Made by a program: the position numbers and the translations under genes. The notes beneath the pieces are model-generated. The model saw nothing but the letters and a program-made list of their open reading frames with translations. It made no database searches and was not told where the DNA came from. Positions 40,191 to 58,397 of a stretch of DNA of 58,475 nucleotides are shown piece after piece; the first letter of the stretch is position 1; every line of letters begins with the position of its first letter. This DNA is from a bacterium BMS3Bbin05 (GTDB lineage: Bacteria; Nitrospirota; Thermodesulfovibrionia; Thermodesulfovibrionales; BMS3Bbin05). The stretch spans positions 1 to 58,475 of the forward strand of contig BDTO01000061.1 of NCBI GenBank assembly GCA_002897855.1, read 5' to 3'.

Positions 40191-42068
40191 ATGCGTTATA
40201 TCATAATGGGTACGGCGGGTCATATTGACCATGGCAAGAGTGCCATTGTCAAGGCCCTTACAGGTACCGACCCCGACAGGTTAAAAGAGGAGAAGGCGAG
40301 AGGTATTACTATAGACCTCGGGTTTGCGGAGCTTTCCTGGCCGGGCGGTCCCGATGTCGGCATAGTCGACGTCCCGGGGCATGAAAGGCTGATAAAAAAC
40401 ATGCTTGCCGGTGCCGGCGGTCTTGATATCGTTCTCTTTGTTATTGCCGCTGATGAGGGTATAATGCCTCAGAGCAGGGAACACCTCGCCATATGCAACC
40501 TTCTTGATATCCAGACAGGCCTTATTGCAGTAACCAAATCCGACCTCGTTGAGCCCGACTGGCTCGAACTTGTCATGGAGGAAGTCAGGGATTTTGTGAA
40601 GGGAAGTTTTCTTGAAGGGGCGGATATTGTCGCGGTTTCTTCTAAAACAGGGGAAAACATAGAGAATCTAAAAGAAAAGATAAAAGGACTTGCACTCGGG
40701 GCAGAACCAAAGAGGTCCAACGGTATGTTCAGACTGCCGATGGACAGGGTATTTACCCTTAAAGGTTTTGGCACGGTCGTAACCGGCACTGCCCTTTCCG
40801 GGAGGCTCAATGTAGATGACAAGGTTGAGATACAGCCCTCCGGGATCAAGAGCAGGGTGAGGGGGCTTCAGAGTCATGGCAAGTCCATTCGGACCGCCCT
40901 TGCAGGACAGAGGGTGGCGGTGAATCTCCAGGGTGTGGAAAAAGACGACCTGCACAGGGGTGATGTTGTGGTACTTCCGGACAGGATATACCCGACCAGG
41001 TCGCTCGATGCAGCTATAGAACTGCTTAAGGGCGCCCCGGAAGTGAAAAACAGGAGCCAGGCCCATCTGCATATCGGGACCTCCGAGTCGGTCGCACGTA
41101 TCATTCTTTATGATTCGGATGCAATAAAAGGAGGGCAGAAGGGGTTTTGCCAACTCCGGCTTGAGTTTCCGGTCACAGCAATGTCCGGGGACCGTTTTGT
41201 AATAAGGAGGCTTTCGCCTGTAAAGACCATTGGCGGGGGGGCTGTACTCGATCCACACCCTTACAGGAGGCGAAAGAAAGACGGGGTTGATGATCTCAGG
41301 GTGTACGATCAGGGGTCGGTGAAGGATAAGATATCTGTCAAGATAAGAAAAACCGGTGCGAAGGGGATGGCGCTGAAACTCATAGAGGGATGGATCGATG
41401 AGCAGAAGGATGAAATTAACAGATGCATCGAGGAATTAAAAAAAGAGGGCAGGATTATCCTGTTTGATAATGTTCTGCTTCATTCTGATACTTTTAACGT
41501 TCTTGGCGATAAAATTCTGGGGATGCTGAGTAAGTATCATAAGGAAAACCCCCTGGAAGCCGGTATGCCGAAAGAGGTCCTCCGCAGGAGGCTCCGGATG
41601 GAAAACAGGATGTTCATGGCTGTTATTTCGAGGATCAGGGGAGCAGTTATGACCGGTGATCTTGTCCATTTAGAGGGGTTTAAAGTCGCCCTTTCAGGCG
41701 CTGATGAAGAAACGAAAGAGAGGATAGTTGATATGTTGAGGAAAGGGGGATTCAGACCACCGTTCAAGGAAGAGATTGCGAAAGAGTTGTCAAGAAGCCC
41801 GAGGGAGATCGGGGATATATTGAAAATACTTTCAAAGGAGGGCCATGTTGAGAGGATCAACGATTCGGTCTATCTGATCCGTGAACTTGTGGACCCGCTC
41901 CTTTCGAAGGTCCGGGGGTTTTTTGCCCGGAAAGGGGAGATGACAGTTGCAGAGTTCAGGGATCTGCTGGATACATCGAGGAAATATGCGCTCCCGTTCC
42001 TGGAATATCTTGACACAAATAAGGTTACAATAAGAGTCGGTGAAGTGAGGAAGATGGTGAAAAAATAA
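40191..42068 (+). CDS. selB: Selenocysteine-specific translation elongation factor SelB
   Basis: 625 aa, usual length. G1 [19 protein letters not shown], the [12 protein letters not shown] switch region, G3 [15 protein letters not shown]4 TKSD. Domains II and III follow, and the C-terminal third has winged-helix repeats that bind the SECIS hairpin ([58 protein letters not shown]). It delivers Sec-tRNA to UGA codons. Its stop overlaps the start of the M16 peptidase gene by one base. With selC and selD in the window this shows that UGA can be read as selenocysteine. Confidence 0.96.
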
Positions 42069-49291: not shown

Positions 49292-49391
49292 GGGAGCGGA
49301 TAGGGTTCTGGTGTCCCTCATGGACTTCAAATCCAGTGTTGCCCCGACACAATCGGGGCAGGGTGGGTTCGATTCCCACACGCTCCCGCCA
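49292..49391 (+). tRNA. selC: tRNA-Sec (anticodon TCA)
   Basis: Acceptor GGGAGCG pairs with CGCTCCC, then G and encoded CCA. The anticodon arm CTGGA-type stem reads TGGACTTCAAATCCA, anticodon TCA (reads UGA). A very long variable arm follows (GCCCCGACACAATCGGGGC, itself a hairpin). T arm GTGGGTTCGATTCCCAC. The D arm has an extended stem (AGGG...CCCT) typical of bacterial selC. Confidence 0.95.
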
Positions 49392-51695: not shown

Positions 51696-52751
51696 TCAGA
51701 TAATCCTGACACCCGGTTTTTTACCTGAAACCGCTTCACCTATTATAACAGCGATACCGCCCCCCATATCCTTGATATCCCTTACGACATTTTCTGCATC
51801 GTTTGATGGTACTGAAATAAGCAGCCCGCCTGAGGTCTGTGGATCAAAAAGCACTTCTTCTTCCTCCCGGGATAACTTTGCGGATATTTCGAGAGAGCCT
51901 TCGGTTAATTTCCTGTTTGCATCGTTAATTCTTGTAGTTTCACCCTTTCGATACATTTCAGGTGCGTTTGGATAAAACGGCAGATCACTGTAGTGGATGT
52001 TGACCTGCAATCCGCTACCCTGCGCTATTTCCAGAACGTGGCCCGATATGCCGAATCCGGTTATATCCGTACATGCGTGAATGTTGTGTTTCAGGGCAAT
52101 CTCAATGGTCTTGCCGTTGAGCGATGCAACATCCGGAAGGATAGGTTCGAGTTCCTTATACGGGAGTTTTCCCGAGCGGCAGGCGTTGAACAGCACGCCC
52201 GTACCGAGGGGCTTTGTAAGAATCAGGGCATCCCCGTCTTTAGCCCCGCAGTTGGTAAGAATTTTGTCCGGGTGAACAACTCCGGTGACCGCAAGTCCGT
52301 ACTTTGGCTCCTCATCTTCAACAGAGTGCCCACCGGCCATAGATGCCCCCGCCTCCATTACTTTGTCATGGCCTCCACGGAGTATTTCCCTTAAAATACT
52401 AATATCAAGTTTCCCGGTGGGGAACATGACAAGGTTCAGGGCAGTCAGGGGCCTGCCTCCCATTGCATAAACATCTGATAAGGAGTTCGCAGCAGCGATC
52501 TGCCCGTACCACCATGGGTCATCAACGGGCGGTGTAATGAAATCCACTGTTGCAATCAGGGCGATATCATCTGTAATTTTATATACAGCAGCATCGTCAC
52601 TTGTCTCGATACCGACGAGAAGATTGGGGTCCCGGGAAGTCTCAAGCCCCTTCAGTGCGTCCGACAGGTCTGTCGGGCCGATCTTTGCCGCTCAACCGCA
52701 TGTGCGGGCCAGTCCGGTTAATGTATTTTTATTTTTGCCAAACAGAGCCAT
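51696..52751 (-). CDS. selD: Selenide, water dikinase SelD, itself with in-frame UGA (Sec20)
   Basis: 351 aa when UGA at 52694-52692 is read as selenocysteine. From ATG 52751 (AGGAGGAG upstream) it reads MALFGKNKNTLTGLARTCGU then AAKIGPTDLSDALKGLE. The active-site position is therefore C18-G-U20 with Lys23, the normal SelD layout. The rest (SDDAAVYKITDD, ATVDFITPPVDDPWWYGQIAAANSLSDVYAMGGRP, ASMAGGHSVEDEEPKYG, DITGFGISGHVLEIAQGSG) is complete. It makes selenophosphate from selenide and ATP. A 7-bp hairpin starts 15 nt after the UGA. Confidence 0.94.
52661..52676 (-). promoter_or_regulatory. Candidate SECIS hairpin in selD
   Basis: CCGACAG / CTGTCGG perfect stem with a 2-nt apex (or a 6-bp stem with a 4-nt loop), 15 nt downstream of the in-frame UGA on the minus strand. 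The position is right for a bacterial SECIS recognised by SelB. Confidence 0.65.
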
Positions 52752-53030: not shown

Positions 53031-53136
53031 ACAGGCAGGCCCATAGTACCAACCCCGACAAGGTCGGGACAGGTGTAAACGCCCCGATATGGGCGACATC
53101 CCGACCGGCTGCATTCATCCCCCGACCTTGTCGGGA
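53031..53136. repeat. Dispersed repeat, family 3, copy B (reverse)
   Basis: Reverse complement matches 24044-24128 (GGGATGTCGCCCATAT, GGATGAATGCAG, GGGCTCCAT), with an extra CCGACAAGGTCGGGAC palindrome inserted. Confidence 0.75.
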
Positions 53137-53187
53137 CAGGCACGGCAAATGCTGTGGTCTTCCGGCTGTCGGGATAAATGGAGTATG

Positions 53188-53958
53188 ATGTTTTATCTTT
53201 TTCTTTTTGCAGCCGGTTCATCAGTTGGATTTCTTTCAGGTCTCCTTGGGATTGGAGGGGGGATTGTCATGTTTCCCCTGTTGCACTATCTGACACCGGC
53301 CCTTGGATTCGACGCTATTGACGTCAGGAGCATAACCGGCCTCACGATGATACAGGGGTTTTGTGCGTCCGCCTCTGCAATGCTTTTTTATAATAAACAC
53401 AGGCTGGTAAATAAATCACTTGTATTTTCCCTTGGAGGAGCGCTTTTTCTTTCATCCCTTACCGGGGCACTCCTGTCTGAGAGAATGCCCGATGAGCCAC
53501 TGCTGCTGATCTTCGGGCTGCTTGCTCTTATTGCCGCCGTCATGATGTTCATGCCCCGAAGCTATGCCAATGATTATCTGACTGAAGACCAGGTGACGTT
53601 TAACAGGGGCATTGCCATTGCTATCGGTATTGCACTTGGAGTGTTTCTCGGGATGGTCGGGCAGGGCGGCGCTTTTATTATTATTCCCATAATGTTATAT
53701 ATACTCAAGGTGCCCCTCAGGGTTGCCGTGGGGAGCATGCTCGCCATAGGGATCTTTTCCTCCGGCGCCGGACTTGCGGGAAAGGTAGTTACGGGGCAGG
53801 TTCCATTCCTTATGGCAGGAGCGATGCTTCTTGGCGCAATACCCTTTGCACGTGTAGGGGGCTATGTTGGTAAAAAGACCAATACAAGAATACTCAAGTG
53901 GCTCCTCGCATTAATTATAGCGGGCACTGCAATTAAGATAATGATGGATATTGTTTAA
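53188..53958 (+). CDS. TauE/SafE-family membrane transporter
   Basis: 256 aa from the second ATG (53188; GGAG 4 nt upstream); the longer frame from 53089 is repeat-derived. About eight helices; GFLSGLLGIGGGIVMFPLLHYL and GVFLGMVGQGGAFIIIPIMLYILKVPLRVAVGSML are the paired family repeats. TauE/SafE proteins export sulfite or organosulfur anions. Followed directly by the pentahaem cytochrome, so the substrate may be a sulfur oxyanion handled with it. Confidence 0.9.
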   Translation: MFYLFLFAAGSSVGFLSGLLGIGGGIVMFPLLHYLTPALGFDAIDVRSITGLTMIQGFCASASAMLFYNKHRLVNKSLVFSLGGALFLSSLTGALLSERMPDEPLLLIFGLLALIAAVMMFMPRSYANDYLTEDQVTFNRGIAIAIGIALGVFLGMVGQGGAFIIIPIMLYILKVPLRVAVGSMLAIGIFSSGAGLAGKVVTGQVPFLMAGAMLLGAIPFARVGGYVGKKTNTRILKWLLALIIAGTAIKIMMDIV

Positions 53959-53962
53959 AAAG

Positions 53963-55120
53963 ATGAAAAGACCGTACTTCAGCCCGGCAAAAAAACTTGT
54001 TTTATTAATTGTGATCTTCTCATGCATATTTCTCATATGGCGGTTTGTTCGTCCAATGAATATATTTGTGGTGGATGAACGCTTTGCGAGACCCATTAAG
54101 ATAGAGATACCACGGGGACTGGGCGCGGTCAGTGCCCTGGAATGCAGGAAATGCCATGAAGAGGAGTATCGGGAATGGTCGGGGAGCATGCATGCAAAGG
54201 CATGGACCGATCCGTATTTTCAGGTGGACTCCGCCTATGACGGTTCTCAGCAAATATGCATGAACTGCCATATCCCTCTTGAGAATCAGCAGAAAAACCT
54301 TGTCCTCGGGTTCAGGGACAAAGAAAAATTCAACCCCATACTGAAGCCCAATCCGGATTATGATCCCAGTTTGCAAAATGAAGGTGTTACCTGTGCAGTC
54401 TGTCACATAAGGGACGGCAAAATCGTCGGCCCTTTTAAAACCGGAAATGCCCCTCATGCAGTTGAATACGATCCGGAATATTTCTCTGGGGTAAACCCGT
54501 GTATGAGGTGTCACGTGGTGTCGGGAAAGAGATGGGACACATTCTACCGGGTGCCTCCCTGCGGGACTGTTGCGGAAATCCGGGAGGGGGATGAGGAGCC
54601 GGACTGTATCGGCTGCCACATGCCGGTGCGGGACGGAGGTCCCCGGGGAGCCCGCAGGGGAAGGATGCATACCTTCCGGGGAGGACATCATCCATCGATG
54701 GTTAAGAGTGCGCTGAAAGTTGAATATAAGAAAGAAACAGGCGGGAGCAACGATATTACATTTACTTTCACTCTGACAAATACCGGAGCCTATCATTATC
54801 TGCCGACGGGCACTCCGGACAGGTATCTGACTCTCGAGTTCAGACTGCTCAACACTGACGGCAAAGTCGTAAAGCAGGAAACCTATACCATGAAGAGATA
54901 TATCCTCTGGAGGCCTTTTATTATTGATCTTAAAGACACACGTCTTCCCTATAATAGACCGGTAAGTTATTTTTTCTCTTTCAGGAAAGAGAAAACCCAG
55001 GCATTCCTCGAGGTTACCGTGAGATATCATTTGCTGGATGAGAAAAGGAGAAAGAGGATAGGATATAAGAACACGGAACCTATAGCATATCCCGTCTATA
55101 ATATGAAAATACCATTGTAA
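53963..55120 (+). CDS. Membrane-anchored pentahaem c-type cytochrome
   Basis: 385 aa from ATG 53963; a TTG at 53951 overlapping the TauE stop is an alternative. N-terminal anchor LVLLIVIFSCIFLIWRFV. Five haem-binding motifs: CRKCH, CMNCH, CAVCH, CMRCH, CIGCH, arranged as in cytochrome c554-like proteins. The C-terminal ~150 residues form a beta-rich domain (DITFTFTLTNTGAYHYLPTGTPDRYLTLEFRLLN). Probable periplasmic electron carrier or oxidoreductase. It follows TauE within a few bases. Confidence 0.9.
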   Translation: MKRPYFSPAKKLVLLIVIFSCIFLIWRFVRPMNIFVVDERFARPIKIEIPRGLGAVSALECRKCHEEEYREWSGSMHAKAWTDPYFQVDSAYDGSQQICMNCHIPLENQQKNLVLGFRDKEKFNPILKPNPDYDPSLQNEGVTCAVCHIRDGKIVGPFKTGNAPHAVEYDPEYFSGVNPCMRCHVVSGKRWDTFYRVPPCGTVAEIREGDEEPDCIGCHMPVRDGGPRGARRGRMHTFRGGHHPSMVKSALKVEYKKETGGSNDITFTFTLTNTGAYHYLPTGTPDRYLTLEFRLLNTDGKVVKQETYTMKRYILWRPFIIDLKDTRLPYNRPVSYFFSFRKEKTQAFLEVTVRYHLLDEKRRKRIGYKNTEPIAYPVYNMKIPL

Positions 55121-55130
55121 AGATTTTTTC

Positions 55131-55159
55131 TTGACAAATAAATTTGTTTTATTTATCGT
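55131..55159 (+). promoter_or_regulatory. Promoter of the ArsR-Met-rich-selenoprotein operon
   Basis: TTGACA at 55131-55136, 17-nt spacer, TATCGT at 55154-55159. A good sigma70-type match directly followed by an 18-nt palindrome. Confidence 0.6.
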
Positions 55160-55176
55160 ATGAGTATATACTCATA
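55159..55176. promoter_or_regulatory. 18-nt perfect palindrome, candidate ArsR operator
   Basis: TATGAGTATATACTCATA overlaps the end of the -10 element and lies 19 nt before the ArsR start. This is the usual autorepression position for ArsR/SmtB regulators. Confidence 0.7.
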
Positions 55177-55194
55177 TATGTGACTGCTAATATT

Positions 55195-55548
55195 ATGATA
55201 AATAATCTGCCGGAACAACTTGCAAGGATATTCAAGGTGCTGGGAGACACCAATCGTCTCGGCATTGTTATGGCCATAGGGAAAGGGTCCCATTCGGTCA
55301 CCGAGATTATAAATGCTACGGGGCTGTCCCAGACATTGGTATCGTTTCACCTCAGGGTATTACGAAAAGCCGAAGTTGTGACCACCCGGAGAGAAGGGCC
55401 TTTTATTTACTACAGCCTCTCAGATCCATCGCTCATGGATATACTTGATGATCTTTCAAAAATAATCAATAGTGGTCGCTCAGAGACGCAAAAATATACT
55501 GCAACGGCCTCTGAAAAGGCGTTGGCAAGGCAGGGGAGAGAAAAATGA
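55195..55548 (+). CDS. ArsR-family transcriptional regulator (second), operon head
   Basis: 117 aa from ATG 55195; upstream codons lie in the promoter palindrome. Winged helix LARIFKVLGDTNRLGIVMAIGKGSHSVTEIINATGLSQTLVSFHLRVLRKAEVVTTRREGPFIYYSLSD. No Cys, so the classical metal-Cys site in the recognition helix is absent; the ligand is unknown. Its TGA overlaps the start of the Met-rich gene (4 nt). It probably represses the whole operon through the palindrome at 55159. Confidence 0.88.
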   Translation: MINNLPEQLARIFKVLGDTNRLGIVMAIGKGSHSVTEIINATGLSQTLVSFHLRVLRKAEVVTTRREGPFIYYSLSDPSLMDILDDLSKIINSGRSETQKYTATASEKALARQGREK

Positions 55549-55811
55549 TTAAATTGTTTGAAGAGATGATGCAGAAGATGATGGGTGGCATGATGAAACC
55601 CGGGGACATGCCGAAGATGATGAATACCATGATGGACAAGATGTTCAGGAATATGAAGACAGAGGACAAGATGGAATTCATGAGTAATATGATGCCAAGG
55701 TGTATGAATATGATGTTTGAGAACATGAGTACGGAAGACCGGAAGGCCTTTGCAGAGAAAATGATGAACCGGATGTATGATGAGATGAAAAAACATGCGA
55801 CGAACATATAA
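55545..55811 (+). CDS. Methionine-rich small protein
   Basis: 88 aa, of which about a quarter are Met. It reads MIKLFEEMMQKMMGGMMKPG, PKMMNTMMDKMFRNM, and FMSNMMPRCMNMMFENM, with a single Cys. It is helical, without signal peptide. Met-rich clusters bind Cu(I)/Ag(I) or soft metals, and regular M-x-x-M-M spacing on helices fits this. Overlaps the arsR stop by 4 nt, so co-translated. No family name is assigned; a metal or metalloid buffer is an inference. Confidence 0.8.
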   Translation: MIKLFEEMMQKMMGGMMKPGDMPKMMNTMMDKMFRNMKTEDKMEFMSNMMPRCMNMMFENMSTEDRKAFAEKMMNRMYDEMKKHATNI

Positions 55812-55835: not shown

Positions 55836-56021
55836 ATGGCGAAAGATAACATCGCAGAAATTCTGTCTGATTTGACCCCCGCTGTTAAAAGAGAGCTTCT
55901 TGACGGTCTGGTGAAGTCTCTTCTGAGCGAGCTGATAGAAACGGAAAAAAAGGAATTACTGCAGAAAATAGTTTCCGGTGGCAGGGAAAACCGTCAGATG
56001 ATTGATATGGTTGAGCATTGA
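55836..56021 (+). CDS. Small helical protein of unknown function
   Basis: 61 aa from ATG 55836, 8 nt after GGGAGG; the frame's first GTG (55827) lies inside that site. Reads MAKDNIAEILSDLTPAVKRE...LVKSLLSELIETEKKELLQKIVSGG. Two amphipathic helices, no Cys. Probably a small partner in the operon; no family recognised. Confidence 0.65.
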   Translation: MAKDNIAEILSDLTPAVKRELLDGLVKSLLSELIETEKKELLQKIVSGGRENRQMIDMVEH

Positions 56022-56045
56022 ATAAGCGAATGTACGGATTCGGGT

Positions 56046-56315
56046 GTGAATCCGATAGACATGAGCAAGGAAGTGATCACTGCCATAAGCCATTCTTACG
56101 AACTGGCGACATATTCGACTCCGGAGTTAAGAGGACTTTTTGATGACTGGCTTGGCGAAATTGAAGAGGAGGTGCTTGAGTTCGTTAAGGACAGGAACAG
56201 GGTTGATTATGACGAGATCGCCCGGCACTTCAGACTAAAGCATGAGAGCGTTATCTTTATTCTGGGGAAACTGGCCCAGGAAGAAAAGATAAACATGCAG
56301 GCATCGGGTAATTAA
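56046..56315 (+). CDS. Small winged-helix-like protein
   Basis: 89 aa. Middle part LRGLFDDWLGEIEEEVLEFV, C-terminal half RNRVDYDEIARHFRLKHESVIFILGKLAQEEKINMQ, a typical helix-turn-helix/winged-helix pattern. Start GTG 56046 or ATG 56061, neither with a clear Shine-Dalgarno. The preceding Met-rich and helical genes and the following selenoprotein-like gene are in the same direction. It may be a second regulator or a structural DNA-binding partner. Confidence 0.65.
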   Translation: MNPIDMSKEVITAISHSYELATYSTPELRGLFDDWLGEIEEEVLEFVKDRNRVDYDEIARHFRLKHESVIFILGKLAQEEKINMQASGN

Positions 56316-56386: not shown

Positions 56387-57855
56387 ATGCCGGATGATAA
56401 ACAGGAGAAAGATAATTCCTTCTGTTGACCCTCTGAATCGGATACCGGGGAGCATTCTGAGGGCCGGGAGTCAGGGGCCGGGAGCAAGAAATCAGAAGGT
56501 TCGGGACTGAAGACTGAAGACAAAAAGACTGAGCACTGCATGGTCTGCGGGGAGCCTCTTGTATACCGGGACAGGGCTGATGAAGTAAAATGTGTCTCTG
56601 CGGCAGGGTTGATCAGGGGCATATCCTGTGTCCCAAAGGTCACCACATCTGTGATATTTGTCATAACCAGGATGCAATGCGGGTCATTGAGAATACCATG
56701 TTCACAACCCGGTCATCAAACCCATTCGAGATATCGGAAGTGGTAATGAGCTTTTCAGGACTACCCATGCTTGGCTGCCAGCATGCCTATATAGCGGGCG
56801 GGGCGCTCATGGCGGCAATCAGGAATATGAATCCCCCCTTTTGTAAAGAGGGGATTACCAATGATGACATAAAAGAGGTCTTTAAACGGACAAAAAGGCA
56901 GGCCCATGGCGGATACTGCGGACTTACAGGTGTATGTGGCATTGCTCCCGCCATCGGGGCATGTTTTGCAGTGCTTGCGGGTTCAAGGTGCGGGAAGGAT
57001 GAAGAGCAGAGGATAACGATGGAGGCGGTGACAAGGATATTCCGGGCAATCACGGATCTTACAGGGCCAAGTTGCTGCAAGGCGTATGTGAGGACGTCCC
57101 TTGATGCGGCTGCGAGGTATCTCAAAGAAAGCGCCGGGATTGAATTGCCTGCGGCCGGAAAGATACATTGTACTTATAGTAATAAACATCCCCATAGTTG
57201 CAGAGGAATTAAATGTCCTTATTTTAATGGAGGCATTTCCTGGGAGTCGAATAACGAAAGAGAAGAAACCGCAAGTTGTACTTACAACTACTCAGGAGTT
57301 ATTAAGGCAGAAAGCATACAGGAGGAAGGTATGGAATATTTACTGAATAAGGCCATTGAATCAGGCGCTGAAAAGGCAAAAGTGATAGATACAGATACTA
57401 TCGTGGTTGAAGAGTGGGTCAGATGGAAGTGTAAGTATGGATGTCCTTTTTATGAGAAAGATGCCTTTCATCCTCCATGTGCACCTGACGCTGAAAGCAC
57501 AGGGAAGGTTGTAAAGGAATACAGCAGGGCAATCCTTATGAATGGTCCTAAAGGAAAGATTCTTACTGAAGCGGTGGTCAAACTTGAGGGCGAAGCATAT
57601 CACATGGGCTATTACAGGGCATTTGCACTTACCGCGCTGTCATCCGGGCCTCCCGGCGCCACCTGACCGTCCGGTGAGAAGGATACCCAGGATGGGTCTC
57701 AGACAGAAGAACAGAAGAAAAAGAGGATCAGGCCGCTGATGGAGGCATGCGGAATAGATGTATTCAGGACCGCAAGGGCAAACGGCTTTGAAATAGACAC
57801 AAAAAAAGAAACGTATGGGAGATGGAATTATTTCGCCCTGCTGCTGCTTGAGTAA
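56387..57855 (+). CDS. DUF5714-DUF2284-like putative selenoprotein with two in-frame UGA codons and one apparent frameshift
   Basis: From ATG 56387 (AAAGGAGAGAG) it reads MPDDKQEKDNSFCU (UGA 56426-56428), a Ser/Glu/Lys linker, then CMVCGEPLVYRDRADEVKCV. At 56594-56598 a one-base shift joins the frame LCGRVDQGHILCPKGHHICDICH, giving two zinc-knuckle-type CxxC pairs. DUF5714 features follow (GCQHAYIAGGALMAAIR, QAHGGYCGLTGVCGIAPAIGACFAVLAGSRC, KIHCTYSNKHPHSCRGIKCPYF). DUF2284 features come next (AKVIDTDTIVVEEWVRWKC, HPPCAPD, EGEAYHMGYYRAFALTAL), then UGA 57664-57666. The frame stays open to TAA 57853 through LMEACGIDVFRTARANGFEI...YFALLLLE. Both UGAs are followed by hairpins. An internal ATG 57331 behind GGAGGAAGG could start DUF2284 separately. 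Confidence 0.72.
56429..56463 (+). promoter_or_regulatory. Candidate SECIS hairpin 1
   Basis: CCCTCTGAAT (56429-56438) pairs with ATTCTGAGGG (56454-56463) with one T-T mismatch; the loop contains an inner CGG ATA CCG. It begins directly after the UGA at 56426. Confidence 0.6.
56830..56856. repeat. Short hairpin repeat inside the coding sequence
   Basis: AATCCCC / GGGGATT arms enclosing CCTTTTGTAAAGA. It encodes NPPFCKEG, a peptide produced when the widespread AATCCCCC(T)TTT hairpin repeat lands in a gene. In-frame insertion in the DUF5714 part. Confidence 0.65.
57676..57700 (+). promoter_or_regulatory. Candidate SECIS hairpin 2
   Basis: ACCCA-GGA-TGGGT apical stem-loop (57685-57697), extended below a one-sided bulge by GAG/CTC pairing (57676-57678 with 57698-57700). 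Starts 9 nt after the UGA at 57664. Confidence 0.5.
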
Positions 57856-58285: not shown

Positions 58286-58397
58286 GTGAGCCTGTCATGG
58301 TGAGCCTGTCATGGTGAGCTTGTCATGGTGAGCTTGTCATGGTGAGCTTGTCATGGTGAGCTTGTCATGGTGAGCTTGTCATGGTGAGCTTGTCGAA
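58286..58397. repeat. Tandem array of a 14-bp unit (8 copies)
   Basis: Unit GTGAGC(T/C)TGTCATG repeated eight times; the first two copies have C, the rest T, and the last ends GTCGA. 14 is not a multiple of three. It directly replaces the expected N-terminus of the GIY-YIG relic. Confidence 0.9.

Follow-up and report, generated by a model that had tools for sequence, protein, structure and literature searches.

The closest described relative of the locus considered here is the metal-binding double selenoprotein MbdU (NCBIfam NF045648, cut-off 600 bits), which a 2026 review lists with the motif CU and two selenocysteine (Sec) residues and credits to Haft & Tolstoy 2025 (PMC13188914). The family is defined by two UGA codons, one in the N-terminal CU motif and one in the DUF2284 domain, within an intact single reading frame. 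Its Sec-containing DUF2284 half is shared with the arsenite methyltransferase/DUF2284 domain selenoprotein (NF041536), the N-terminal half of which is a methyltransferase instead of the DUF5714 domain of MbdU. TsoA (NF045695, cut-off 170 bits), a protein of the three-selenoprotein operon with the motif LULAXC, is the model closest to the gene adjoining mbdU in the window, by which the whole 58,475-nucleotide stretch of BMS3Bbin05 DNA analysed is meant.

The window copy of mbdU

The window gene (56387..57855; all features lie on the + strand unless stated otherwise) encodes a protein that matches DUF5714 and DUF2284 when Sec is written as Cys and a break in its frame as X. In this form it scores 750.2 bits against NF045648, aligned over positions 3-468 of 468, and the unmended genome sequence still reaches 695.7 bits, likewise above the cut-off. 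Architecture and both Sec positions are those of MbdU, and the gene is thus a member of a known family, since this family is curated as NF045648 and listed in the review (PMC13188914). The domain pair and the loop GPPGATU, both recognized in an earlier note made from the DNA letters alone, are borne out by domain matches and sequence; the pair is not new, the family having been described already in 2025. What sets the window copy apart from the family is that its frame is shifted by 1 base and its first stem is weakened.

Canonical DUF2284 proteins (PF10050) belong to the same domain family and have the same KCxYGC region; in related genomes they carry a GPCxxCxxC cluster, in place of which the MbdU loop GPxGxxUPSGE has just one Sec. 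Alignment with distant DUF2284 proteins puts this residue, the second Sec of the protein, at the second Cys of GPCxxC, an assignment that is likely but not certain because the alignment is gapped around the loop. The claim that Sec replaces Cys consequently holds for this site in its likely alignment; the homologues yielded no Cys counterpart of the N-terminal CU, and the two UGA-free DUF5714 proteins examined (L021, L029) are devoid of the CU segment. A shorter form, DUF5714 with the N-terminal CU UGA and no DUF2284 in the same ORF, is present in six loci (L018, L019, L020, L028, L055, L064) and scores ~335-409 bits, well below the MbdU cut-off. A structure model of the mbdU product is poor (mean pLDDT 58.9), and its confidence is low around both Sec sites, as flexible segments would allow, though this is in itself no evidence for flexibility; a fold search with this model gave no match at E <= 0.001, and a sequence search of solved structures returned a weak ovotransferrin match alone (E 0.0035, profile positions 167-228).

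The ATG at 56387 is directly preceded by a AAAGGAGAGAGA-type ribosome site, and the UGA at codon 14 (56426..56428) directly follows a Cys codon, so that start, Shine-Dalgarno sequence and CU context are as the earlier note had described them. The same applies to the downstream part: the ORF 56590-57666 (358 codons), which is the product of standard gene calling, terminates at the UGA of the GATUPSGE motif (57664..57666) and is followed by 62 sense codons up to a TAA (57853-57855), with a protein-like codon-position bias. The one continuous reading claimed for 56387-57855 fails, a 1-base frameshift between the two UGAs having been overlooked. From the ATG, the frame reads MPDDKQEKDNSFCUPSES...EHCMVCGEPLVYRDRADEVKCV and meets repeated TAA/TAG codons beyond approximately residue 120; CGRVDQGHILCPKGHHICDICHNQD... 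lies in a different frame, and the DUF5714/DUF2284 ORF is not in the frame of the ATG. Translation thus rules out a single-frame reading, and the two frames join only if a base is missing at 56597/56598. There, the window has GTA AAA TGT GTC T-C TGC GGC, with a Tyr codon lacking one base, compared to GTG AAA TGT GTC TAT TGC GGC in the nearest relative (L011, protein ~81% identical), and all aligned full-length relatives (13/13) are in frame at the equivalent site. The two UGAs occupy places homologous to those of MbdU, though the base absent between 56597 and 56598 puts them in different frames of the window.

Conservation of the two UGA codons and their stem-loops

Homologues were found in metagenome-assembled genomes labelled Nitrospirae, Nitrospirales, Syntrophales and Deltaproteobacteria, as well as in related genomes. 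By motif matching, the first UGA is kept in 22 distinct sequences including the window, 21 of them clean (the match counted for L054 is anchored on another CU further upstream); 17 distinct sequences keep the second. From the second UGA onwards, the window and 15 relatives differ at 87, 109 and 461 places at codon positions 1, 2 and 3, respectively, with 365 synonymous versus 184 non-synonymous differences, both sums being taken over pairwise comparisons that have common ancestry and hence do not count independent events. To judge from these substitutions, the codons beyond the second UGA are under purifying selection and evolve in the pattern of a protein. The comparison of homologues that had been proposed as a check, with missing Sec or Cys and unconserved hairpins as the adverse outcome, was run and found UGAs and hairpins conserved; the reading of two selenocysteines is thereby supported. 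As separate observations, the mbdU N-terminus of L015 (genome G048), AGUDUEPGDDAGGHQ, has Asp where the other copies have the Cys, along with an additional UGA two codons 5' of the conserved UGA, and the L010 copy has an internal TAG.

A bSECIS-like stem-loop site follows the first UGA (56441..56456). Among relatives, its stem of 6 bp with a G-rich tetraloop is paired in 90% of cells and covaries: four pairs have two-sided changes, amounting to 14 such cells, a value as high as which was reached in 0/500 shuffles, and slid versions of the stem are only 20-58% paired. In the window, two of the six pairs are mismatched. The stem after the second UGA (57684..57698; 5 bp) is 87.5% paired, with two-sided changes limited to one pair, and has moderate support from relatives. 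The hairpins noted earlier after both UGAs are hence conserved features, but not ones that the window reveals by itself: 45 nt after each UGA, folded from the window alone, were no better than shuffles (z +0.60 for the first, -0.14 for the second). Single-sequence hairpins were rejected as evidence, the support coming from the relatives.

The machinery for Sec insertion is encoded in the same genome. The window itself contains selB (40191..42068) and selD (51696..52751, - strand, with an in-frame UGA of its own in GUAAK), and selC, the tRNA-Sec gene (49292..49391), in agreement with what had been read from the letters; selA lies on contig 27, and selA, B, C and D are thus all present. In the 18 genomes searched, which include all 14 whose mbdU match exceeds the MbdU cut-off, selB scores above its own cut-off in 17; the remaining genome is 84% complete and contains a fragment of selB. 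To go by the conservation described above, SelB and tRNA-Sec, together with the stem-loop after each UGA, would insert Sec at both mbdU UGAs.

It is very improbable that the UGAs are ordinary stops, with the 358-codon ORF 56590-57666 as the whole protein and the 62 codons downstream and 70 codons upstream as leftovers. Standard gene calling does yield exactly this ORF, and the hairpins of the window alone are not significant; yet both UGAs are invariant in distant relatives with the flanking protein conserved, third-position bias beyond the second UGA is strong, the stem after the first covaries, and the curated family NF045648 covers both codons. There is hardly any doubt that both UGAs encode selenocysteine, and we hold with considerable confidence that the locus is an mbdU copy with Sec at both, a judgement that covers identity and Sec coding as opposed to activity.

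The missing base, in turn, results from an error in assembly or from a recent lesion. The former is favoured because the remaining mbdU sequence is strongly constrained and the tsoA-like neighbour is intact, and single indels are a common error in draft assemblies; the mismatched first stem favours decay. A genuine, recently inactivated allele, correctly assembled, is a possibility to be taken seriously, if the less probable one: besides the two mismatched pairs of an otherwise conserved stem, the single base lost within a Tyr codon fits this explanation, and decay is seen elsewhere, as in the internal TAG of L010 and the tsoA-like deletions of L009/L043. The window allele may then be dead, since it could not be translated through without a change of frame and since its first stem is impaired. 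Extremely improbable is a programmed frameshift uniting the two frames, for which the exact abutment of the halves at the break may be cited; the site, AAATGTGTCTCTGCGG, shows no slippery heptamer, and the frame is unbroken at this point in all full-length relatives.

The tsoA-like neighbour and the gene cluster

The gene directly upstream of mbdU (55836..56315, starting at ATG 55836) is, as predicted from its sequence, a third selenoprotein, similar to TsoA, whose in-frame UGA the earlier note does not mention. This UGA (56019..56021, codon 62, in VEHUISECTDSGVNP) is shared by all 15 relatives in which the sequence extends across the site, and no Cys version of the motif was seen among the loci examined. 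It is followed by a bSECIS-like hairpin with an 8-bp stem (56035..56054), which, unlike the mbdU hairpins, beats shuffles in the window (z -2.07) and has a similar counterpart in all loci folded (9/9). The likeness to TsoA comprises alignment over the full length of the NF045695 model, the UGA falling within the aligned part, and an ArsR-type neighbour that resembles TsoR; the differences lie in the score (99.2 bits, below 170) and in the motif, U-I/L-x-x-C-T/S-D-S-G instead of LULAXC. The window has VEHUISEC, and relatives have UIKEC, UIEEC, UIREC or ULKAC, with the U-x-x-x-C spacing kept. Across the class, sub-cut-off TsoA matches occur in 17 genomes and matches over the cut-off in 0/231. 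In some relatives (L009/L043 and L004/L047), the tsoA-like gene is internally deleted or truncated beside an intact mbdU, the deletions being those of L009/L043. Standard gene calling overlooks the Sec codon of this gene as it does both Sec codons of mbdU.

The cluster begins with an ArsR/SmtB-family gene (55144..55548; PF01022), the probable cluster regulator, which is TsoR-like (NF045707, 84 bits, below the cut-off of 115) and precedes the tsoA-like gene in the same position in several or many of the relatives' loci. It is followed by a small Met-rich ORF (55545..55811) with no Pfam or NCBIfam match, then by the tsoA-like gene and by mbdU as the final gene. Of the 14 genomes whose mbdU match exceeds the cut-off, nine have a tsoA-like gene 5' of mbdU (the window, L002, L003, L004, where the copy is truncated, L005, L015, L042, L044 and L050). 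In G205 and G206 (L084, L085, L101), the mbdU slot after arsR and the tsoA-like gene is filled by an ArsM-like methyltransferase gene, which itself has an N-terminal UGA (MKHNKKPxxUPSSKGAVV). The model NF041536 calls for a methyltransferase N-terminal half and more than 575 bits, and the DUF2284 half of MbdU alone matches it, with 309.6 bits. Whether arsR, the tsoA-like gene and either mbdU or the ArsM-like gene make up, in this class, a selenoprotein module in which the last gene can be exchanged, and whether the tsoA-like proteins (U-I-x-x-C-T-D-S-G) and the stand-alone DUF5714 proteins with a single N-terminal Sec are subfamilies below the current curated cut-offs, is in our estimate evenly balanced.

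Several features of the surroundings may be recorded alongside. In L101, DedA/TVP38-like and rhodanese-like ORFs seem, by eye, to come next after the ArsM-like gene. In L012 (contig RBG_13_scaffold_4168, 2357-4117), one stretch free of TAA and TAG holds a DsrE-like segment with a UGA (GVUIPC), a methyltransferase and a Sec-DUF2284. Upstream of the ArsR gene, the window encodes a TauE/SafE-type permease and then a multihaem cytochrome c with C554/C7 domains (53089-55120); a similar permease is also found near mbdU in L004. A short tandem repeat, GGTGAGCTTGTCAT, is situated close to the window end (58295-58395).

A possible role in soft-metal(loid) chemistry

The context of ArsR, tsoA-like and ArsM-like genes points to soft-metal(loid) chemistry as the putative activity. 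The mbdU product may be a handler of soft-metal(loid) or reactive-sulfur/selenium species, presumably intracellular, that may bind, reduce or hand over soft species by means of a mobile N-terminal Cys-Sec tail and of the DUF2284 Sec, located where the Cys loop used to be; expression of the cluster would be under ArsR control. As a whole, this putative mechanism is tentative, and taken by itself we regard it as rather doubtful. With respect to the family, the data confirm MbdU independently, by covariation and codon-level evidence, in another set of genomes. That an ArsM-like selenoprotein takes the place of MbdU after arsR and the tsoA-like gene provides a concrete functional lead for MbdU.
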